The notes beneath the pieces were generated by a model, which saw only the letters and a program-made list of their open reading frames with translations, searched no databases and was not told the DNA's origin. Position numbers and translations under genes: made by a program. A stretch of 64,000 nt of DNA from Mycobacterium sp. GTDB taxonomy: Bacteria > Actinomycetota > Actinomycetes > Mycobacteriales > Mycobacteriaceae. The stretch lies in assembly GCA_003987775.1 (NCBI GenBank), contig RXJD01000024.1, forward strand, positions 49,249 to 113,248, given 5' to 3'. Position 1 is the first letter of the stretch. Each line of letters opens with the position of its first letter. Positions 53,352 to 64,000 of the stretch are shown in pieces.

Positions 53352-54317
53352 TTAGGGGTGAAATTGGCCGTGCTCGGTGACGACGGCGGTGATCAGCTCG
53401 GCCGGGGTCACATCGAAGGCCGGGTTGAATGCCTCTGCGTCCGGTGGAGTGATGGTGACGCCGGCGTAGGCCCTCAGCTCTTCGGGCGCGCGTTCCTCGA
53501 TGGCGATCTCGGCGCCGGAGCGTAGCGAGGCGTCGATGGTGGACGACGGCGCGACCACGACGAGTGGCACGTTGTGGTGACGGGCGGCGATGGCCAGGCC
53601 GTAGGTGCCGATCTTGTTGGCGACGTCGCCGTTGGCGGCGATTCGGTCGGCACCGACCAGCACGCAGTCCACCAAGCCGCGTGCCATCGCTGCCGCCGCG
53701 GCGCTGTCCGGTTGTACCCGGTAGGGCACACCGGCCTGTGCCAGCTCCCACGCCGTCAGCCTGGACCCCTGCAGCAGCGGTCGTGTCTCGTCGACCAGCA
53801 CCGATTCGACCAGCCCGCGCTGATGCAGATGCCATACGACGCCGAGTGCGCTGCCCCAGGCCACCGTGGCGAGGTGGCCGGCATTGCAGTGGCTGAGCAG
53901 TCGCAGCGGGCGGCGGTCGGAGAGCGAGAGCACAATCTCGGCGGCGTGGCCGGACGCGGCGCGGTTGAGGCGTTCGTCCTCGTCGAGGATGGAAAGTGCT
54001 TCAGCCAGTACGGATTCGGTGCCCTCGCCGAGCTTGCGCAGGGCGCGCTCGACTCCCCAGCTGAGGTTGACGGCGGTCGGTCGGGCGTGGGCGACCCGTT
54101 CGGCCGAGGCCCGGACGTCGCCTCCCTCGCGGGCGGCGAGCACCACTCCGAGTGCCCCCGCTGCGCCGAGGGCCGGAGCGCCACGGACCGCCAGGCGGCG
54201 GATCGCGTCGATCAACTCGTCGACGGTGCGCAGTCGGAGGATGCGGTATTCGGCGGGCAGCGCGGTCTGGTCGATGATCGTGACCGCGTCGTCGTCCCAG
54301 TCGATGGTTCTGCGCAC
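53352..54317 (-). CDS. mtnA: S-methyl-5-thioribose-1-phosphate isomerase
   Basis: A 321-residue isomerase of the methionine salvage pathway, converting 5-methylthioribose 1-phosphate to the ribulose form. Motifs: RRLAVRGAPALG near residue 45, catalytic Cys in LLSHCNAGHLAT, DETRPLLQG and catalytic Asp in VGADRIAANGDVANKIGTY. GTG 54317 with AGGG eight bases upstream is chosen. First gene of the mtnA-BVMO-mug operon (21 bases to the BVMO start). No other salvage genes are nearby. Confidence 0.9.
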   Translation of the reverse strand: MRRTIDWDDDAVTIIDQTALPAEYRILRLRTVDELIDAIRRLAVRGAPALGAAGALGVVLAAREGGDVRASAERVAHARPTAVNLSWGVERALRKLGEGTESVLAEALSILDEDERLNRAASGHAAEIVLSLSDRRPLRLLSHCNAGHLATVAWGSALGVVWHLHQRGLVESVLVDETRPLLQGSRLTAWELAQAGVPYRVQPDSAAAAAMARGLVDCVLVGADRIAANGDVANKIGTYGLAIAARHHNVPLVVVAPSSTIDASLRSGAEIAIEERAPEELRAYAGVTITPPDAEAFNPAFDVTPAELITAVVTEHGQFHP

Positions 54318-54441
54318 GTTGGTGACCCTAGCTCGCGCCGATGAGGTGACTGCAGCCCCGAGTCGGCACGGACTTAATCCTCTATCCACTTCGGTGGCGC
54401 TGGCCGACGATGGCACCGCAGGACGATCAGGAAGGTCACCC

Positions 54442-57078
54442 ATGTCGACGAAACTGGGGGCGGCTCCGCTGGCCGCGGCCGCGACTACCGCCGGCGACGG
54501 CGACGCACTGGACAACGACGACCGCCGCCGCCGAGAGATCGACGCCATCGTCGACACCGCCGCGGCCGCGGCCGCCGAATTCCGCAAGCTCGATCAGACC
54601 CAGGTCGACCGGATCGTCGAGGCGATGGTGCGCGCCGGGCTGCGTGCCGCAGCGGAGTTGGCGGGCCTGGCGATCGAGGAGACCGGGTTCGGGGTCTTCG
54701 AGGACAAGGTCGTGAAGAACTACGTGGCGACCGAGTTCCTCCACGACTATCTCCGTGACAAGAAGTCGGTGGGCGTGGTTGACGAGGACATCGAGAACAA
54801 CATCGTCCACGTCGCCGAACCCATTGGCGTGGTGCTCGCCATCACCCCGGTGACCAACCCGACGTCGACGGTGCTGTTCAAGGCGATCGTGGCGGCGAAG
54901 ACACGCAACGCCATCGTGTTCCGGCCGTCACCGTATGCCGTGCGGTGCTGCGAGCGCAGCGTCGAAATCCTGCGCGAGGCGGCCGAAGCCGCCGGGATGC
55001 CGGTCGGGGCGCTGCAGGTCATTCCCGACGCTGCCCACGAGGTGACGCACTATCTGTTCAAACATCCGCAGGTCGACTTCATCTGGGTGACCGGTGGACC
55101 CAAGATCGTGGCGCTGGCGAGCGCTACCGGGAAACCGGGCCTCTGCGTGGGCCCCGGGAATGCGCCCATCTACGCTCACAAGACCGCGGACATCAAGGGT
55201 GCCGTCGTCGACATCCTCATCTCGAAAACCTTTGACTCGTCGGTTATCTGCCCCGCCGAGCAGACCTGCATCATCGACGACGAGGTGTATGACGCGATGA
55301 TCGCCGAGTTCGAGCGGATGGGCGCGCGGGTGCTCACCGACGACGAAGCCGCCGCCATAACGCGATTCGCGTTCGGTTGTGGCGACAAGGTCTCGCTCGA
55401 TGCGGTGGGCCAGAAGGCGCCGGAACTTGCTGCGCGGGCAGGGTTTTCGGTGCCCCCGACGGTGAAAGTGTTGCTGGCCCCGTTGCCGGCGGACCTCGAC
55501 GAACTCGCCGTACACCCGCTTTTGCAGGAGAAGCTGATGCCCGTGCTCGGCGTGGTTCGGGCACGCGACGTCCAACACGCCATCGACGTCGCGGTCATGG
55601 TGACCGAACACGGCGGGCTGGGCCACACGTCGGCCGTCTACTCCAACGATCAGGCGGTGATCGACGCCTACAGCGCGGCTGTCCGCACCGGGCGGATCCT
55701 GGTGAACGCGCCGACCGCGGTCGGCGCACTCGGTGGCGTCTACAACAATCTGACCCCGACCTTCTCGCTCGGATGCGGAACATGGGGAGGGTCGAGCACC
55801 ACCGAGAACGTCAACTATCGGCAGCTGCTGAACATCAAGACGGTCGCGAAGCGCCGCACCCCGCCGCAGTGGTTCCGCGTCCCGTCCAACACCTACTTCA
55901 ACGCCGGCGCGCTGGAGAACCTGCGTGAGCTGGACTGCGACGCCGTCGTGGTGGTCACCGACGCCGTCAGCGACGAGCGGGGTGTGGTCGACCTGCTGCG
56001 CGGCAAGATGCGCACCCGGCACGTGCACGTGTTCAGCGAAGTGACCCCGGAGCCGGACGAGACGACGATCCGCCGCGGCGTCGAACTTTTGGAAAGGGTG
56101 CAACCCGAGGTTCTCATCGCCGTGGGTGGCGGTTCGGTGCTCGATGCCGGCAAGGCGATGCGGTTGTTCTACGAGCATCCGGAGAAGACCCTCGACGAGT
56201 TGACCATGCCGTTCCTCGACCCACGCAAGCGGGTGGCCGACTATCCGACCGACCGGCACCGACTCCAATTGGTCGCCATACCAACGACTTCGGGCACCGG
56301 CTCGGAGGTCTCGCCGGCAGCGGTGCTGACCGTGCAGGGCCGGAAGGAGACGCTGGTCGATTACAGCCTGGTGCCTGAGCTGGCGATCATCGACCCGGAG
56401 CTGGCGTCGTCGATGCCGCCGGTTCTGACAGCGGACACCGGTATCGATGCGTTGACGCACGCGCTGGAGGCGGCGGTCTCGATCTTCGCGTCGCCATACA
56501 CCGACGCGTTGTGCGCGCAGGCGGCGCGGCTGATCTTCGAGGGATTGCCCAGGGCATATCACGATCCCGACGACTTGGCCGCGCGCACCGACATGGCGAA
56601 CGCGGCGACGTTGGCCGGGCTCGCGTTCTCGAATGCCTTCGTGGGAACGAACCATGCGCTGGCCCACGCCGTCGGCGCGAAATTCGGTATCGCACACGGG
56701 CGGGCGAACGCGATCTTCCTGCCGCATGTGCTGCGCTACAACGCAAGCCTGCCCACCAAATTCATGCCGGCGCCCGGCTACTCGGCCTATATCGCCCCCG
56801 ACAAATACGCCCAGATCGGCCAGCTCATCTTCGGTGGCCACGAGCCGCAGGAGTGCCGCGGCCGCTTGTTCCGGGGAGTCGAGGACCTGTTGCGTCAGGT
56901 CGACATGCCGCGCTCGCTGCGGGATATGGGTGTCGCCGAAGAGGAGTTCCTGGCGGCGCTGCCGGTGTTGGCCATGACGGCGTTCGAGGACCTCAGCAAC
57001 CGGACCAACCCGCGGATGCCGCTGGTCAGTGAGATCACGGAGTTGCTGCGGGCGGGGTATTACGGGGCTACCGCATGA
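54442..57078 (+). CDS. adhE: Bifunctional acetaldehyde-CoA/alcohol dehydrogenase (AdhE)
   Basis: An 878-residue AdhE, the full family length. N-terminal CoA-acylating aldehyde dehydrogenase with catalytic Cys in SSVICPAEQT (near residue 270); linker near 450; C-terminal iron-dependent alcohol dehydrogenase with GGGSVLDAGKAM and metal ligands in DALTHALEA and TNHALAHAVGAKFGIAHG. It interconverts acetyl-CoA, acetaldehyde and ethanol with NADH and normally forms spirosomes. GGAAGG precedes ATG 54442; longer frames are antisense to mtnA. Unusual in an obligate aerobe. Confidence 0.92.
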   Translation: MSTKLGAAPLAAAATTAGDGDALDNDDRRRREIDAIVDTAAAAAAEFRKLDQTQVDRIVEAMVRAGLRAAAELAGLAIEETGFGVFEDKVVKNYVATEFLHDYLRDKKSVGVVDEDIENNIVHVAEPIGVVLAITPVTNPTSTVLFKAIVAAKTRNAIVFRPSPYAVRCCERSVEILREAAEAAGMPVGALQVIPDAAHEVTHYLFKHPQVDFIWVTGGPKIVALASATGKPGLCVGPGNAPIYAHKTADIKGAVVDILISKTFDSSVICPAEQTCIIDDEVYDAMIAEFERMGARVLTDDEAAAITRFAFGCGDKVSLDAVGQKAPELAARAGFSVPPTVKVLLAPLPADLDELAVHPLLQEKLMPVLGVVRARDVQHAIDVAVMVTEHGGLGHTSAVYSNDQAVIDAYSAAVRTGRILVNAPTAVGALGGVYNNLTPTFSLGCGTWGGSSTTENVNYRQLLNIKTVAKRRTPPQWFRVPSNTYFNAGALENLRELDCDAVVVVTDAVSDERGVVDLLRGKMRTRHVHVFSEVTPEPDETTIRRGVELLERVQPEVLIAVGGGSVLDAGKAMRLFYEHPEKTLDELTMPFLDPRKRVADYPTDRHRLQLVAIPTTSGTGSEVSPAAVLTVQGRKETLVDYSLVPELAIIDPELASSMPPVLTADTGIDALTHALEAAVSIFASPYTDALCAQAARLIFEGLPRAYHDPDDLAARTDMANAATLAGLAFSNAFVGTNHALAHAVGAKFGIAHGRANAIFLPHVLRYNASLPTKFMPAPGYSAYIAPDKYAQIGQLIFGGHEPQECRGRLFRGVEDLLRQVDMPRSLRDMGVAEEEFLAALPVLAMTAFEDLSNRTNPRMPLVSEITELLRAGYYGATA

Positions 57079-57185: not shown

Positions 57186-58409
57186 GTGTCATCAGAAGGA
57201 ACATGGCCGAATTTTGTCAGTGGCATCTCAGCAGCAGGGGTAGAAGATCTGCGGGCGATCGCCGGCAACTTTGCCGACTGGCAGCTCTCGGCGCCTATTG
57301 ACACAGCACTTACCACCGCGGAAGCCCTAGCCGCCGAGTACCTTTCGAAGCTGCGCTATCCCCACCACATCTTTGGTGAACTATCCGAAGACGCGCAGGA
57401 TCGAGCGGCTGCGGCCGTCGGTTGCCCGACCCGTGCGCAGTGGCAACCGCCGGAGTCGAAACCCGGAACGCCGGCGTACGCCGAGCCGTCCTGGGAGGAC
57501 GATGTGTACGAGGTGCTGTTCAAGCAGTTGCCGCCCGAGCCGCCGCGACCGAGACCGGTATCCGACCGTACGTCGGCCGCGTCGCAGTGGCCCGAGCTTG
57601 CGGAGGGCGCCGTGAGTGACGCAGCGCTACGTCACCGCCTCGCCCTGGAATTGGCCGGAGCCTTGGGCGCAGATTGGTCGCCCGTTCCCGACGTCGGCGA
57701 CGCCGTGGTCCGGGTGCGCTTCGAACGCGGCGACCTGAATTTCGTGGTCGTGCCCGGCGGGCAGATGACGATGGGTATGACGGAGGCCGAGCTGGCAGAA
57801 CTTGATGTGCTGGGCGACGAGGTTGCCGAAAGCGCTGAATTTTTCGCCGCGCACGCGGCCCCGGCGCACTCGGTTACCGTCGAGCCGTTCCTCTGCGCGG
57901 AGACACCGCTGTTGGCACGGCATGCCGCGATCCTGACGATCGAGGGAGACGACGCCAACGTCCACGGCGTCCTGCGGCAAAACAGCTGGCAGGCGGCGGC
58001 GACGGTAGCGGCGTGCGGACTGCGTCTGCCGTCCGAGGCCGAATGGGAATGGGTTGCGCGCGACGGTGGCCGGCAATCCTGGATCTGCGGAGCAGAGCGG
58101 CCCGAAGTATGGACCGAGCGGATTCTCAACGGTGGTCCGGATGAGGCTCGTACGCCGTTCGGGACTCTGATGCTGGGTTGGGGCGAATGGGTCGACGACG
58201 GGTGGCACGACGACTATGTCGGTGCACCGTCTGACTCTGGGCCTTGGGGACCTGTGGACAGGCCCGACACCGTGCGCGGCGGTGCATTCGCGTGCTGGCC
58301 CTGGCAAGGCGGCGGCGAGGCGCTTCTGCTGCATGCGGCGTCGCGTGACCGCGGTTTCGGCCAAGCGATCCACGCGGTGCGGCTTGCGACGGATCTTCCG
58401 CCGCGATAG
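57186..58409 (+). CDS. FGE-sulfatase (SUMF1/EgtB-like) domain protein
   Basis: A 407-residue protein from GTG 57186. The N-terminal 150 residues are helical and unrecognised. Residues 185-405 show a formylglycine-generating-enzyme-type fold: VVVPGGQMTMGMTEAE, LRLPSEAEWEWVARDGG (hallmark) and DTVRGGAFACWPWQGG, ending in FGQAIHAVRLATD. The copper-binding Cys pair of true FGE is not clear, so it may be a non-catalytic or differently acting member. A 10-base palindrome ATGAATTCAT (57110-57119) lies upstream. Confidence 0.7.
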   Translation: MSSEGTWPNFVSGISAAGVEDLRAIAGNFADWQLSAPIDTALTTAEALAAEYLSKLRYPHHIFGELSEDAQDRAAAAVGCPTRAQWQPPESKPGTPAYAEPSWEDDVYEVLFKQLPPEPPRPRPVSDRTSAASQWPELAEGAVSDAALRHRLALELAGALGADWSPVPDVGDAVVRVRFERGDLNFVVVPGGQMTMGMTEAELAELDVLGDEVAESAEFFAAHAAPAHSVTVEPFLCAETPLLARHAAILTIEGDDANVHGVLRQNSWQAAATVAACGLRLPSEAEWEWVARDGGRQSWICGAERPEVWTERILNGGPDEARTPFGTLMLGWGEWVDDGWHDDYVGAPSDSGPWGPVDRPDTVRGGAFACWPWQGGGEALLLHAASRDRGFGQAIHAVRLATDLPPR

Positions 58410-58429
58410 CGAAGTCATCGATTCTCGGA

Positions 58430-58642
58430 TTTCGACGACGCAACTCCTACAATTCGGCCGAATCGCTGGTGCTCTTGCCGGGCTTGGTGCCCCCGTCGAT
58501 ATCGGCTTGGCGCATTCACCTGGTCAGCGTCATCGGGTGTACACCGAAATCGGTGGCGATCTGCTCGATCGTCACCCGTCGTCGCGGTTGCGGGCGACCC
58601 GCACGACGTCGTCACGGAACTCTCCGGGTAGGGCCTGGGCAC
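58430..58642 (-). mobile_element. Fossil of an IS3-family transposase OrfA
   Basis: Reading the minus strand in pieces gives PRPYPE, FRDDVVRVARNRDDG, VTIEQIATDFGVHPMTLTR, MRQADIDGGTKPG and SDSAEL, which together match the N-terminal helix-turn-helix protein of IS3-type elements. The pieces lie in different frames and are broken by at least two frameshifts and two stop codons. No OrfB and no clear terminal inverted repeats are seen. It marks the left border of the accessory region. Confidence 0.7.
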
Positions 58643-59051
58643 ACTGACATCCTTTAAGCGTGCCCACGCTGGGCAGGCCAACTCAGATGTCACCTATTCG
58701 TGCAGCAGACCCGACCCCTTCTCGTTTTCGTCGTTACCTACGACGAAAGCGATCTGCCCTGGCTTGAAATTCACAGCCACCGAGCCGAGCTGGAATCCCG
58801 GTCCCCTAGGCGGCGGACATGTGTGGGGCAGGGGCGGAAGTGGCCGGCCTGCCTTAACAGCGCGTCTGTTTCGTTGAGCGTCGCGTCAACCCTGCGGCCT
58901 AGACCGTACTTAGCCTGGGTCGACGTCACGGCCACACATTTAAGTAGGCGACTACTCACGTCCGCGGCATGTTTCCGGTGCGACCATCCGAATGCGACGT
59001 TCCTCGCGACCAGAGCGAGTGGTGAGCACGATCCCGATGGGAGGTGGGGCT
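58643..59051. other. Non-coding stretch between IS fossil and accessory cassette
   Basis: No supported gene. An open frame at 58700-59119 has no coding character and overlaps the next gene. One perfect 9-base inverted repeat (58726-58748) is the only structure noticed. Probably holds the promoter of the downstream cassette. Confidence 0.5.
58726..58748. repeat. Perfect inverted repeat (hairpin)
   Basis: TTTCGTCGT (58726-58734) and ACGACGAAA (58740-58748) form a 9-base stem with a 5-base loop. Could be a terminator-like hairpin or an operator. No U-tract follows. Confidence 0.4.
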
Positions 59052-60011
59052 GTGATCAACAACTCCGCGGGGCGCACAGGCCTGGAAGGTGCGCAATCGC
59101 ATTCGACGCGAAGAAGTGATGCGGTTGTGCATGGTTGGTACGCCGATGGAGGGGAGGAGGCGCAGATGCGTTGGGATGGAACGACATGGACGTCCTCTAC
59201 GGCGCAGTCGAAACAACGCGGTGGGCGACGTGCCGACGCGAGTTCCCAAGCTGATGCCAGGAATCAGGCGCCATTCTCGCTAGACCGATCCGCCGAATGG
59301 GGTGCTGCGCCTTCACGGGGTCCGGCTTGCCATCAGGATTCGCGATCAGAACCGAAAGGCGGCAAGACAACTGCAGACCACTCATACGTGGTACATCACG
59401 AGGCCCATCAAAGAGCCGATGAGATCAAGGGTGATCGTCGCGCTGGCATTCTGGTCGTGCGCGGCACGGCCCGGGCGGTGCAGCAGCGGTCTACCGGGGG
59501 TCAAGTTTCCACCGAGGTGTTGTCATTCCGCTTGGAACGCTACGACTCGAAAGGCGAACGTCTGCGGCCAGTTCCCGTAGTACTCCGTGGAAACATGATT
59601 GTCGGTGGCAGCCGAATCGCCGGTCAACTGAACGACGGTGACGAAGTCGAGGTGCGTGGCGTGCTGCAGGACGGAACATTGCGTGCCGAAGCCGTGGTGA
59701 ACCTGACTACGGGTGCGGAACTGCGCAGCCGTTCCGGTTTGCAAGACCTTTCCGACGCACTCTCTGGTAAAGCCGGCAAGAAGCTCCGCAAGGGCCTGAT
59801 CGTCACGCTTTCGTTGATCGCGAGCGTCATTGCTGTCGTCATTACCGCGTTCGTGCTTTTCGTCTATTTCGCGCAGGACAGTTTTCAGCAACATGTGGAC
59901 CGGACCACAAGTCAGTTCGAGCGGGATAAGAAGGACGCGCTGAGGAACTTCTGCATGAATGTGCGGGACAACGGAATGAAGCTTCCTCACGAATGTGACG
60001 GGGTCTTGTGA
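59052..60011 (+). CDS. DUF2510-like membrane protein of the accessory cassette
   Basis: A 319-residue protein from GTG 59052, chosen because GGAGG lies seven bases upstream; ATG 58992 would add 20 residues. A short DUF2510-like unit (HGWYADGG..AQMRWDGTTWT) is near residues 27-50, then a disordered linker, then a beta-rich OB-like segment (about 120-230, EVEVRGVLQDGTLRAEAV). A membrane helix at about 249-274 is followed by a 45-residue tail with two cysteines. Probably a membrane-anchored partner of the ATPase that starts 48 bases downstream. Confidence 0.72.
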   Translation: MINNSAGRTGLEGAQSHSTRRSDAVVHGWYADGGEEAQMRWDGTTWTSSTAQSKQRGGRRADASSQADARNQAPFSLDRSAEWGAAPSRGPACHQDSRSEPKGGKTTADHSYVVHHEAHQRADEIKGDRRAGILVVRGTARAVQQRSTGGQVSTEVLSFRLERYDSKGERLRPVPVVLRGNMIVGGSRIAGQLNDGDEVEVRGVLQDGTLRAEAVVNLTTGAELRSRSGLQDLSDALSGKAGKKLRKGLIVTLSLIASVIAVVITAFVLFVYFAQDSFQQHVDRTTSQFERDKKDALRNFCMNVRDNGMKLPHECDGVL

Positions 60012-60059
60012 AATTGCCTGGGAGCCAGGCTTTTATCTGTATGTGCGAGAGGAAAAATC

Positions 60060-63000
60060 GTGCCTACCGACAGCGTGACAACAGCCCGGATCGACTATTT
60101 GCAGCGTTGCGGGGCCGCGCCGATTCAGCCTTCACCGCCTTACACGATCGGAGATCCATCTGCACGCCGCCTGCTCAGAGTTCAAGGGATAGGCAAGGCG
60201 AGTAACCGACGACGGCAGCACGACAAGCTTGAACCTTGGCGGCCGGTTACTACCGAGCTAATCACCGGCCTCTACGCTTACCGGATTCCACTGGCGTACG
60301 CGCTGCGAGGCTCAAGAAGCGGCGTAGAGGTTTGCCTTGGCACTTGGCCGACCCGCGTGGCGGATTCCGCACAGAACGACATGCAGATGGCGGTTATCGG
60401 ATCCGTTCTGCAAGGGCTATACCCGATCGTCGACCTTGCTCCGGCATCGGCGGAATGGCAGTCCTGGCTGCTAGCCGGACTCGCATTGGGGATACCGTCA
60501 CCAACTGGAATCGACGAATCTGATGGAGCAGCGCCGATCGACCGAGTTATCCGGTCCATGAGCGGAATGGATTGGGCTTTATTAATTTTGGCGCAGCCCG
60601 CTGCCGAGCAGGGCATCGCACGCCAGCGCGAATCGATCCTCAACGAAATGCGCGTGGTGATGTCGGCCGCACAGCACGAGGCCGCGCCGAGTCCCCTGAC
60701 GGAGCAGTATGTTGAACTACTCAAGGGGGCATTGGCCGCCATGGGTGACGGGATGGCCACTGGCGGCTGGCGCACCGGGATTTATCTGCTCGGGGATCAC
60801 GATAGCTACCCGCGGCTGGCGAGCGCATGGCGAAGCGTCATGTCCGGAGCGAAATCGCTGCCCGAACCTGTCCGGACCTTCGATTTCCCAAACGCAGGCG
60901 AGGTTGCGCAGCTTTGGGCGTTGCCCGACACAGAAGGATCAACCGGACCCGGGCACTATCGGCGACCGTTCGAATACCAAACACTTTTGTCGACAACGCA
61001 ACTGGCGGCGTGCGTGCACCTACCCGAACTTGAGACGCCGGGTTTCAACGTGCGGCCGGCGCCTTCATTTTCAGTGTCCCGCGCACCGTCGCGGCCGGGG
61101 GTGCCCGTCGTCGATGTCGGCGAGGTGATGATTCAACGTCGAGCGACCGGGCTGCCCTATCGTCTCGAACTCGACCAACTAACTCGCCATGCCTTCATTG
61201 CTGGGCTGACTGGGGCCGGCAAGACAAATACGCTGATATACCTCCTGAGCCAAGCCGCAGCTGTCGGCGTGCCGTTTCTGGTGATCGAGCCGGCGAAGAC
61301 GGAGTATCGAGAGCTGCTCAACCGCAGCGATTTTGGCCGAGATGTGCGAGTCTTCACGGTCGGGCGCGAACAGGTTGCGCCACTGCGGATGAACCCCTTT
61401 GAAGTGGCGCCTGGGGTCGATGTCTCCACGCACCTCGATCTGCTGAAGGCGGTGTTTACGGCAAGCTTCGCCCTGTGGATACCGCTGCCGCAAGTGCTCG
61501 AGCACTGCCTCGTGGACCTGTACACCGAACGGGGATGGGATTTTGGATCGAGCGAACATCCTGGGGGTGATGTAACTGGTACCTCCGCTGTCCCCCGGCT
61601 TGCGGATCTGGTGGCCGCAGTCGAGCGCACCGTTCCGACCCTCGGTTATAAGAGCGAGTCCACCCAAGAAATCACCGCGTCACTGACCACCCGCCTGAAC
61701 GCACTCAGGCGTGGTGCTCGTGGCTTGATGCTCGATGTCGAGCGTTCAATCCCGATGGAGGAAATTCTGCGGCACCCGACCGTCATCGAGCTTGAGGGTC
61801 TCGGGGATGACGCGGACAAGGCGTTCATGATGGGACTGATCCTGATCCGGCTGTACGAACACCGGCGGGCCGCGCATGCCGCCGCGCTCACCGCCGCGGC
61901 ACGAAAGGGCAAGCCGCCGCCACAACCAGGCCGTCTGCGCCACATCGTCGTAGTAGAGGAGTCGCATCGGCTGCTTGGGTCAGAGCGCAAGCAATCCGAT
62001 GCCTGGACCGCCGACCCCAAGGGCGCGTTCGTCGACGCTTTTAGCCAGATGCTCTCGGAGGTAAGGGCTTACGGGCAGAGCATCGTCGTGGCGGACCAGG
62101 TGCCTGTGCGCCTGGCCCCAGACGTTATAAAGAATACGAATCTCAAGATCGGACATCGACTCGTCGCCGGCGACGATCGCGATGCGATGGCAAAAGCGAT
62201 GTCGATGAACGAGGAGCAATCGGCTCAACTCGCTGTCCTGCCGCCAGGACGGGCCGCGGTCTTCAGCGAGGGCGATCACACGCCCGTAATCGTGCAAGTA
62301 CCGCAGGCGAAGGACCAGGCCACCGATGCCGCTATCGATGATGCGGCGGTCGCCAGGGCAATGAGTCGTTGGCGCGACGATCCTGTGGTCGGTCAATGGT
62401 TTGCCAGCAGCGCAGTGTGTCACGGCGCCTGCCGCGACCCGCGTGCCTGTCGGATGGCGACGGCCTTGACCGACCTCCCGGACGCGAAGTTGCTCGCGAA
62501 CCGCCTTTGGCATACAGCTGTCGAACACCCGGACGGGATTGACGTCGTATGGCCTGACGTTAGGGCGTTCGTCGCCTACCGAGCGGCGGGGGCAGGCAGC
62601 GCGAATTTCTTTGTCGGCGGAAATGATTCGGTCGGCCTCGATACTCGGGTGCACAGCTTCGCGCTGCATGCTATGGCGATCGTGACGGCGCGCCGTGCCG
62701 TGCAAAAAGGCTGGGCGGCGTCAGATGTCGCGCAATTAGAAGAGCTGGCTCGCTCCGCTGTAGACGAGCGGACGAAATCGACCGAGCGATGGCTGGGAGC
62801 GACGAGCGTGCGCATCGACCTGCTTTCCTTGGCTGCGCGTCTTCAGACGCGAACTCACGATCCACTACCGCTGTGCAGTGCGATATGCACGGACGGCCGT
62901 TGCCCGTACCTGCATGCCTTAGTCGATATCCGCACGGCCCCGCGACACCAAGCAATTGCAGACGCCGGTCCGCCTCCCGACGACCAGCTGATCGAGATTG

Positions 63001-63209
63001 CGAACAGTCTTGCGCAAGACATCACCTCGGTTGCTTCGGATGTGCCCGGCACTGCCGCGTTTCTCACCCAATCACGTTGGCGAGCAACAGCATGCGCAGC
63101 GCAACTGCTGCGATGCGACACCGATCATCCGCACCACCATGCCAAGCTGGTCGCCGAGGCGATCTCTGCGGCCGGCTGGAACATCCACTACGAGGAGCAG
63201 GAGAAGTAG
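60060..63209 (+). CDS. HerA/FtsK-type ATPase with C-terminal Cys-motifs
   Basis: A 1049-residue protein from GTG 60060 with GAGAGGA upstream. Residues 1-370 form an N-terminal region with no match I recognise. The ATPase core has Walker A GLTGAGKTNT near 381-390, IEPAKTEYRELL after it, and Walker B IVVVEESHRLL near 628-637, as in HerA/DUF87 helicase-translocases. Near the end are two cysteine groups: CHGACRDPRAC (about 787-797) and CSAICTDGRCPYLH (about 938-951); the second is exactly C-x3-C-x4-C-x3-H. A hexameric DNA-translocating motor is likely. Stop and next start abut. Confidence 0.85.
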   Translation: MPTDSVTTARIDYLQRCGAAPIQPSPPYTIGDPSARRLLRVQGIGKASNRRRQHDKLEPWRPVTTELITGLYAYRIPLAYALRGSRSGVEVCLGTWPTRVADSAQNDMQMAVIGSVLQGLYPIVDLAPASAEWQSWLLAGLALGIPSPTGIDESDGAAPIDRVIRSMSGMDWALLILAQPAAEQGIARQRESILNEMRVVMSAAQHEAAPSPLTEQYVELLKGALAAMGDGMATGGWRTGIYLLGDHDSYPRLASAWRSVMSGAKSLPEPVRTFDFPNAGEVAQLWALPDTEGSTGPGHYRRPFEYQTLLSTTQLAACVHLPELETPGFNVRPAPSFSVSRAPSRPGVPVVDVGEVMIQRRATGLPYRLELDQLTRHAFIAGLTGAGKTNTLIYLLSQAAAVGVPFLVIEPAKTEYRELLNRSDFGRDVRVFTVGREQVAPLRMNPFEVAPGVDVSTHLDLLKAVFTASFALWIPLPQVLEHCLVDLYTERGWDFGSSEHPGGDVTGTSAVPRLADLVAAVERTVPTLGYKSESTQEITASLTTRLNALRRGARGLMLDVERSIPMEEILRHPTVIELEGLGDDADKAFMMGLILIRLYEHRRAAHAAALTAAARKGKPPPQPGRLRHIVVVEESHRLLGSERKQSDAWTADPKGAFVDAFSQMLSEVRAYGQSIVVADQVPVRLAPDVIKNTNLKIGHRLVAGDDRDAMAKAMSMNEEQSAQLAVLPPGRAAVFSEGDHTPVIVQVPQAKDQATDAAIDDAAVARAMSRWRDDPVVGQWFASSAVCHGACRDPRACRMATALTDLPDAKLLANRLWHTAVEHPDGIDVVWPDVRAFVAYRAAGAGSANFFVGGNDSVGLDTRVHSFALHAMAIVTARRAVQKGWAASDVAQLEELARSAVDERTKSTERWLGATSVRIDLLSLAARLQTRTHDPLPLCSAICTDGRCPYLHALVDIRTAPRHQAIADAGPPPDDQLIEIANSLAQDITSVASDVPGTAAFLTQSRWRATACAAQLLRCDTDHPHHHAKLVAEAISAAGWNIHYEEQEK

Positions 63210-63605
63210 ATGACCATGCCAGCCGGGACCCAGGGACGGGTATCAGTGGGCCTATTGCGCCTTGTGCAGGTGAACACGACGACGGCCGAGGCAGCCATTG
63301 CTGCAGTGGAGGAGTATGGCGCCGATCCCGAAACATTGTTGATACGGCTGGGAGTGATGCAGCTCCTGAAACTTCAGCTCGAAAGTCTGCGCGCGATCGA
63401 CGAGGACGAAGCTGCATTGCTGGCGTCCTACCGTCGCTGGGTTGAAGTTGGGCTGGATTACATGGGTCCGGCGCCTGAGACCACAGGCCGTGACTACGCG
63501 TTGGCATCTAGTCTTCTCAACGTAGAGATGCACTTCGCTTCGGGCGGTCGGACGCCGGTTGGTGGCCGTGGCGCTATTCCGTTTGAACTGGCGGGTGAAT
63601 CGTGA
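63210..63605 (+). CDS. Small helical protein of the accessory cassette
   Basis: A 131-residue soluble protein, starting on the base after the ATPase stop. Mostly helical (TTAEAAIAAVEEYGADPETLLIRLGVMQLLKLQ). No family recognised. The GTGA overlap with the following gene and the abutting start show tight cotranslation with the ATPase. Confidence 0.7.
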   Translation: MTMPAGTQGRVSVGLLRLVQVNTTTAEAAIAAVEEYGADPETLLIRLGVMQLLKLQLESLRAIDEDEAALLASYRRWVEVGLDYMGPAPETTGRDYALASSLLNVEMHFASGGRTPVGGRGAIPFELAGES

Positions 63606-63985
63606 GCGGGGGCAAGAAGAGGACCACTGCGCCGCCGCCCGAGTCCTCAGCATTGCGACAAGCAGCTACGTCAGCGGTTCTTACCGGTCCTAAAGCGGCC
63701 CTCCCGATTTGGGTGGCGCCGGCCGCGAAGGAAATCGGCAAGGGAATCCTGCAATGGGGCGCACGACAGATCTTGGGAGAGCCGGATCAGAAGTCGACGA
63801 GTGGCCAGCCCATCACAATCAACATCACTGGTCCGACGCAAAACGCCACTGTCACCGGTGGGAATACCACGGTCACCGGCGGGACTACCTCCGCCACCGG
63901 CGGAAAAATGAATCGCCCTGGTTCTGCCGGAGACTCGGGCTATTGGATTCCGATCAGTGGTTGGTCGGTCCGTTGTGCATCGTAG
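63602..63985 (+). CDS. Small protein with Thr/Gly-rich beta repeat
   Basis: A 127-residue protein from GTG 63602 (GTGA overlap). A basic N-terminus and one helical segment (residues 30-60) precede a Thr/Gly/Asn repeat: ITINITGPTQNATV, TGGNTTVTGG, TTSATGG. The repeat may form a small beta-solenoid or fibre. It ends 15 bases before the window edge, so more cassette genes may follow. Confidence 0.65.
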   Translation: MSGGKKRTTAPPPESSALRQAATSAVLTGPKAALPIWVAPAAKEIGKGILQWGARQILGEPDQKSTSGQPITINITGPTQNATVTGGNTTVTGGTTSATGGKMNRPGSAGDSGYWIPISGWSVRCAS

Positions 63986-64000
63986 AACGCGGCTTCGAAC

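Follow-up and report, generated by a model that had tools for sequence, protein, structure and literature searches.

What a HerA-type ATPase handles when its gene is joined to those of a membrane-anchored OB-fold protein and two further partners is the question raised by four genes at the end of contig RXJD01000024.1 of Mycobacterium sp. (GenBank assembly GCA_003987775.1). These genes, herein called P1, ATPase, P3, and P4, lie at the right-hand edge of a 64,000-nucleotide stretch (the window, to which all coordinates refer). An earlier note on this DNA had suggested an accessory cassette, perhaps for antiphage defense, whose gene set belongs to no known system. In genome coordinates the window spans 49249-113248 of the contig. 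A PE-type protein and neighbors of mycobacterial appearance (both by eye) elsewhere in this genome, along with the nearest named relatives, point to a mycobacterial host. The absence of a known counterpart agrees with our search of the open literature, in which no description of this gene set was found (subscription papers and preprints lay outside its coverage). Our preferred explanation, to which we assign a probability of roughly 0.47, is that the genes are a horizontally acquired copy of a mobile effector-translocation cassette.

The four open reading frames (ORFs; 58992 to beyond 63605, plus strand) are real and run in one direction, with the close joins that had been described. A gap of 48 bp separates P1 from the ATPase gene (60060-63209), the ATG of P3 (63210-63605) directly abuts the ATPase stop codon, and the GTG start of P4 (63602) overlaps the P3 stop in the sequence GTGA. 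P4 is not a whole gene: only its 5′ part (63602-63908, 102 codons) is present, and an insertion sequence (IS) follows. This part encodes the beginning of a Ser/Thr/Gly-rich protein, which we propose to be a cargo or effector. P3 encodes a small protein of 131 amino acids (aa) that looks helical when judged by eye and may serve as an adaptor.

The P1 ORF opens at 58992, and the more likely start is the GTG at 59052, preceded by GGGAGGTGG, which gives a 319-aa protein (59052-60011). It comprises a DUF2510-like N terminus, a low-complexity linker, an OB domain, and one strong transmembrane segment (hydropathy 2.83 at residue 249). The description of P1 as a membrane DUF2510 protein holds for the membrane but not firmly for DUF2510, whose match falls below the Pfam gathering score (21.5 versus 24 bits, E 1.9e-4). 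The suspected OB-like region is borne out by the structural model (mean predicted local distance difference test score 67.8, mostly 86-93 in the OB part), for which Foldseek returns the OB fold of SSB and PriB (best E 3.9e-5). A homologue in Mycobacteroides franklinii matches at 42% over 306 aa, and other homologues replace the DUF2510-like N terminus with zinc ribbons (several Streptomyces and Herbidospora loci) or extra transmembrane segments (Rhizobium). When a P1 profile was run on 396 genomes of the phylum, most matches were to zinc ribbons, and the OB matches not adjacent to an ATPase came from two kinases of mycobacteria. In these Ser/Thr kinases (L162:6011-7840, contig C24 of the same genome, and L161:5521-7656; loci are cited by L numbers), the OB-transmembrane module has the kinase domain on one side and an extracellular-looking part on the other. 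In a Chloroflexota locus, the long downstream protein is followed by a second small protein (L031:5440-5913, by eye), which has a hydrophobic tail and a stretch resembling DUF2510.

The ATPase belongs to the HerA/FtsK motor superfamily, as the earlier note had read it. Its central domain matches DUF87/HerA in Pfam (35.8 bits, cut-off 23.2), and its Walker A (GLTGAGKT, residues 382-389) and B (IVVVEE) motifs are both intact. An N-terminal domain (about 1-340) precedes a single motor region (about 340-760) and a helical C-terminal part with conserved Cys. VirB4 is among the two nearest motor folds, with the motors of DndH-C, SIR2-HerA, and HerA-DUF4297 also near, and the tandem FtsK domains typical of type VII secretion systems (T7SS) were not found.

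The linkage of P1 to the ATPase is seen in 24 close loci with full-length ATPase relatives: four distinct plasmids, 18 genome contigs, and two genomes of a class scan (a fifth plasmid record, H2, duplicates the R. opacus plasmid and was not counted again). In 22 of these, namely on all four plasmids, on 16 of the 18 contigs, and in both class-scan genomes, the ATPase has a P1-type OB protein as its neighbor. In the two loci without it (L030 and L033), the sequence starts at a contig end, and in four of the 22 (L032, L041, L042, and L044) P1 is convergent to the ATPase. The OB part of P1 is found in none of 61 loci of the wider ATPase family, where L047 has a zinc-ribbon-only match. Across 21 loci, P1 and ATPase distances correlate with a Mantel r of 0.70 (0 of 5000 permutations), and in a tree of 84 motor sequences the close loci form a clade of 23 rows (SH-aLRT 99), within which the window ATPase pairs with that of Rhizobium lusitanum (support 100). 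This tree was made by a quick method with long-branch warnings elsewhere in it, and L041 and L045 were too short to include.

Whether all four genes occur together elsewhere, a point on which the earlier note had made its proposal depend, receives a divided answer. The P1-ATPase pair recurs as described. Among 32 loci, P3 has a match only in R. lusitanum, at the same position (tblastn 5e-9; pairwise 4e-13), and P4 has no significant match there; P3 also has no match in the plasmid collection at E ≤ 0.1. The Rhizobium locus (L043) lies far outside Actinomycetota and has a close ATPase relative with both P1- and P3-type genes. The ATPase is rare, being found at E ≤ 1e-20 in 5 of 301 sampled genomes of the family, with no other member of the genus, and at E ≤ 1e-40 in 6 of 396 genomes of the phylum; the wider ATPase family is present in 45 of 394 genomes of the class. 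Matches occur on 43 plasmids. A single-protein scan of viral contigs yielded no relatives, and phage records gave two partial matches.

Downstream of the ATPase, the proteins of this clade are long, rich in Ser, Thr, Gly, and Pro, and mostly without mutual matches. For 18 loci, all 153 pairs of ATPases align (37-97%); when low complexity is masked, the downstream proteins of different loci match one another in only four pairs (E < 0.001). Those of L029 and L036 have in common a 304-aa C-terminal part (71%), although the ATPases of these two loci are 43.7% identical, as expected of C-terminal domain exchange. A constant component thus lies beside varying C-terminal parts, with one clear exchange, which is the arrangement that characterizes polymorphic toxins. 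A smaller ORF lies between the ATPase and the long protein in the window, in Rhizobium, and in L015, L028, L029, L033, L040, L123, and L124, of which only the Rhizobium one is a proven P3 homologue. Neither P3 nor P4 has a firm match in Pfam, PADLOC, NCBIfam, or PHROGs, and Pfam gave no WXG100 or LXG match in P3 or in the truncated P4. The motif [DE][RH][PG][DEST][LV] is present in 8 of 17 clade downstream proteins, with 14 occurrences in all (1.90 per 1000 aa, versus 0.25 across 371 ORFs from these loci), and is absent from P4. It was picked post hoc, with a background that includes some of the 17 proteins, and is a lead only.

In the wider family, which is about 30-40% alike over the motor, toxin-type proteins stand directly downstream in many loci. 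We collected 54 downstream proteins from the 61 loci by a simple rule of length and third-position GC content, and some may be wrong; seven loci without a convincing downstream ORF were dropped (L019, L129, L131, L132, L155, L156, and L158). Toxin-type Pfam families are matched by 11 of the 54 at E ≤ 0.001: Colicin-DNase/WHH in three (the three Colicin-DNase and three WHH matches being taken as the same proteins), YwqJ-deaminase in three, ADPrib_exo_Tox in two, and LHH, EndoU, and Peptidase_C2 in one each, with one further RelA_SpoT match below cut-off. For example, an LHH nuclease follows the ATPase in E. coli, where the relative is present in 1 of 5426 genomes, and Colicin-DNase/WHH proteins follow it in Treponema and Exiguobacterium; SMI1/KNR4 immunity genes are annotated in all three of these loci. 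An ADP-ribosyltransferase is annotated downstream in S. clavuligerus, and EndoU, YwqJ-deaminase, calpain-like protease, and ADP-ribosyltransferase proteins occupy this position in others. Upstream partners also vary: E. coli, Lactococcus, and Treponema have a dynamin pair together with a small protein, and larger proteins are found elsewhere. The former three loci (L046, L047, and L053) are plasmid-borne; in each, two genes of the dynamin family and one for a small protein accompany the genes for the HerA-like ATPase and a nuclease toxin, and two of these loci also have SMI1/KNR4. On chromosomes, one branch of this ATPase family (L058 and, in part, L139-L154) adjoins murT in one actinobacterial family.

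We propose that in an intact relative the ATPase would form a ring that is tethered to the membrane by P1, whose transmembrane segment would be the anchor and whose SSB-like OB domain would face the motor. The C-terminal half of the ATPase may engage a Ser/Thr/Gly/Pro-rich and probably disordered cargo protein encoded by its neighbor at the P4 position, and in some members a small adaptor at the P3 position may help this engagement. ATP hydrolysis would then thread or expose the cargo, of which the exchangeable C-terminal domain would be the active, perhaps toxic, part.

Because a constant motor and membrane partner beside variable downstream proteins resemble the polymorphic-toxin plan, the cassette probably works like one of these systems. 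Polymorphic toxin systems with ATPase-driven trafficking include T7SS/ESX with its YueA-type ATPase (Zhang et al. 2012, PMC3482391). Judging from the part of that paper available to us, the likeness lies in a constant motor of the FtsK/HerA superfamily beside proteins with differing C-terminal domains, and in the YwqJ-deaminase, LHH/WHH, EndoU, and ADP-ribosyltransferase domains of the wider family. In contrast to the systems treated there, the cassette has one VirB4/DndH-like motor domain, no WXG/LXG match in P3 or the truncated P4, an SSB-like OB membrane partner, and no regular immunity gene seen in its clade. As no toxin domain above cut-off and no regular immunity gene was seen in the clade loci inspected, we do not file it as a member.

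The ATPase sequence is a mosaic that bears on this proposal. Residues 1-345 are 62% identical to the M. franklinii protein and 36% to that of Rhizobium, residues 346-760 are 52% and 70% identical, respectively, and residues 761-1049 are 24% and 40% identical. The best break falls after residue 327 (reached by 0 of 1000 permutations), and with three sequences it cannot be attributed to one of them as the recombinant. P1 is nearest to M. franklinii and P3 matches only Rhizobium. Together, these relationships suggest a single module, made up of motor, adaptor, and cargo, that can be exchanged by recombination against the half with the membrane partner. A general link between the C-terminal half of the ATPase and the cargo was also tested, in 21 loci and in the L029/L036 pair, and was not borne out.

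Several results weigh against an effector-translocation cassette. The mosaic is not general: across 21 loci, P1 shows much the same correlation with each of the three parts of the ATPase (r 0.66, 0.67, and 0.63), and the ATPase C termini of L029 and L036 (35%) are no more alike than elsewhere. The Rhizobium protein at the P4 position looks low in complexity throughout and has no significant likeness to P4 (E 16). No Pfam domain above cut-off was found in the downstream proteins of 11 clade loci (L014, L016, L028-L031, L033, L035, L039, L123, and L124); at the C terminus of the L123 protein there is a weak GIY-YIG match below cut-off (E 0.069). No regular immunity-like gene follows the downstream genes in the clade loci inspected, the window locus being incomplete. 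In the wider family, MurT accounts for 12 of the 54 downstream proteins, and about 27 are without any match. Finally, the predicted SSB-like OB fold and a kinship with DndH, HerA, and CedD would suit DNA as well as protein.

A broader form of the proposal, which we advance only tentatively, is that the loci represent a previously undescribed effector-translocation class spanning phyla. In such a class, a VirB4/DndH-type motor would act with a clade-specific membrane partner on cargo with exchangeable toxin-like C-terminal domains. The partner might be the SSB-like OB-transmembrane protein here and, elsewhere, the dynamin pair with a small hydrophobic-tailed protein, or a larger protein.

The motor fold and the OB domain could also belong to a HerA-type antiphage system, in which incoming DNA would be sensed or pumped by the ATPase together with P1, and an effector acting inside the infected cell would be supplied by the downstream protein, a reading that we consider rather unlikely. 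HerA antiphage systems include SIR2-HerA/Nezha and HerA-DUF4297, and the cassette ATPase has their HerA-type motor core, with the fold similarities given above extending to DndH-C. Conflict-type neighbors are present in some relatives as well: a TIR-like protein beside L035 (by eye), NACHT in L016, and Csm6 in L052. However, the four genes, past which the assembly does not extend, include neither SIR2 nor DUF4297, the partner is a membrane OB protein, and the ATPase scores far below the cut-off of the NCBIfam family HerA_antiphage (32.5 versus 800 bits). PADLOC has no match for P1, P3, or the truncated P4, and the 27-kb R. opacus stretch names no defense gene, no controlled defense-island test having been made. 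The SMI1/KNR4 genes of some wider-family loci fit delivered toxins better, and the named downstream domains there are mostly of polymorphic-toxin type or MurT. The defense role put forward earlier is not established. For DndH and the related “HerA/FtsK capture systems,” the partners named are a restriction endonuclease, Orc/CDC6, D5 helicase, a winged helix-turn-helix protein, or PglZ (PMC10853773, PMC12839542), and neither an OB-transmembrane partner nor a Ser/Gly-rich exchangeable protein is described in the portions of these two papers available to us.

Improbable in our view is a role as an accessory to DNA transfer, whereby the VirB4-like motor and the membrane SSB-like protein would aid movement of a plasmid or an integrative and conjugative element and the downstream protein would be a traveling helper. 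It would account for the VirB4-like motor fold, the ATPase match to CedD (62 bits), the plasmid location of members, and the genes for MobC, a relaxase, and a type IV secretion coupling protein in the vicinity of the R. opacus copy. However, no relaxase or type IV secretion gene is annotated in the three remaining plasmid stretches, 24 of the 43 matching plasmids are typed non-mobilizable, and the exchanged C-terminal part of L029 and L036 is left unexplained. In a sequence-profile scan with Pfam, 15 members of the ATPase family gave no match at E ≤ 1 to the VirB4 N-terminal domain (CagE/TrbE/VirB), and no other VirB gene was noticed in the cassette.

The cassette in the window is horizontally acquired and low in GC content: positions 59052-63907 are 61.5% GC, and 107 other stretches of equal length within 1-58000 range from 65.0 to 70.5%, in agreement with the difference noted earlier. 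Also as noted, a decayed IS3-type OrfA remnant lies upstream (about 58415-58690, minus strand), recognized by eye from transposase-like pieces in three frames with stops. At the other side, the last 92 bp (63909-64000, no strand assigned) are the end of a multicopy IS3-family-like element, matched at 99-100% by copies at nine further sites of the genome, of which at least eight are contig ends; the window end is itself the contig end. Counting the P4 copy, the genome has ten copies of this end and nine of the opposite end. By their 3-bp flanks, the nine opposite ends pair one-to-one with nine of the ten, and none of the nine in the assembly carries the flank duplication (AAA) of the P4 copy. 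The P4 copy is therefore left over, which indicates that P4 is interrupted after its 102 codons and that its far side is absent from the assembly. Of the Thr/Gly β-repeat protein described earlier, about 30 residues of repeat ahead of the IS stand, and the C terminus of the ORF translation is IS sequence. This copy of the cassette is probably inactive, its last gene having lost its end. That the genes are nothing but a decayed passenger without a function of their own here, left as a low-GC remnant with IS elements on both sides in a genus with no other member carrying the ATPase among those sampled, is likewise improbable, since the P1, ATPase, and P3 frames are open, the Walker motifs are intact, and such an account describes this copy rather than the family.

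Farther to the left, an FGE/EgtB-like formylglycine-enzyme-domain protein just over the Pfam cut-off (57186-58409) directly precedes the IS3 remnant. Before it lies a fused aldehyde dehydrogenase and iron-containing alcohol dehydrogenase (53352-57078; AdhE-like by Pfam), which by eye adjoins an MtnA-like gene on the opposite strand, unusual company in an aerobic actinomycete.

If instead the cassette serves defense or DNA transfer, its conserved membrane OB partner would make it a new variant of those systems. If the effector-translocation proposal is true, several phyla would share an overlooked way of handling toxins or effectors, relying on a single VirB4/HerA-type motor rather than on a complete secretion system of type IV or type VII. 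Such loci could be recognized readily by their P1-ATPase pair, and the intact plasmid copies in non-pathogenic soil bacteria would make directly testable what HerA-type motors move besides DNA.

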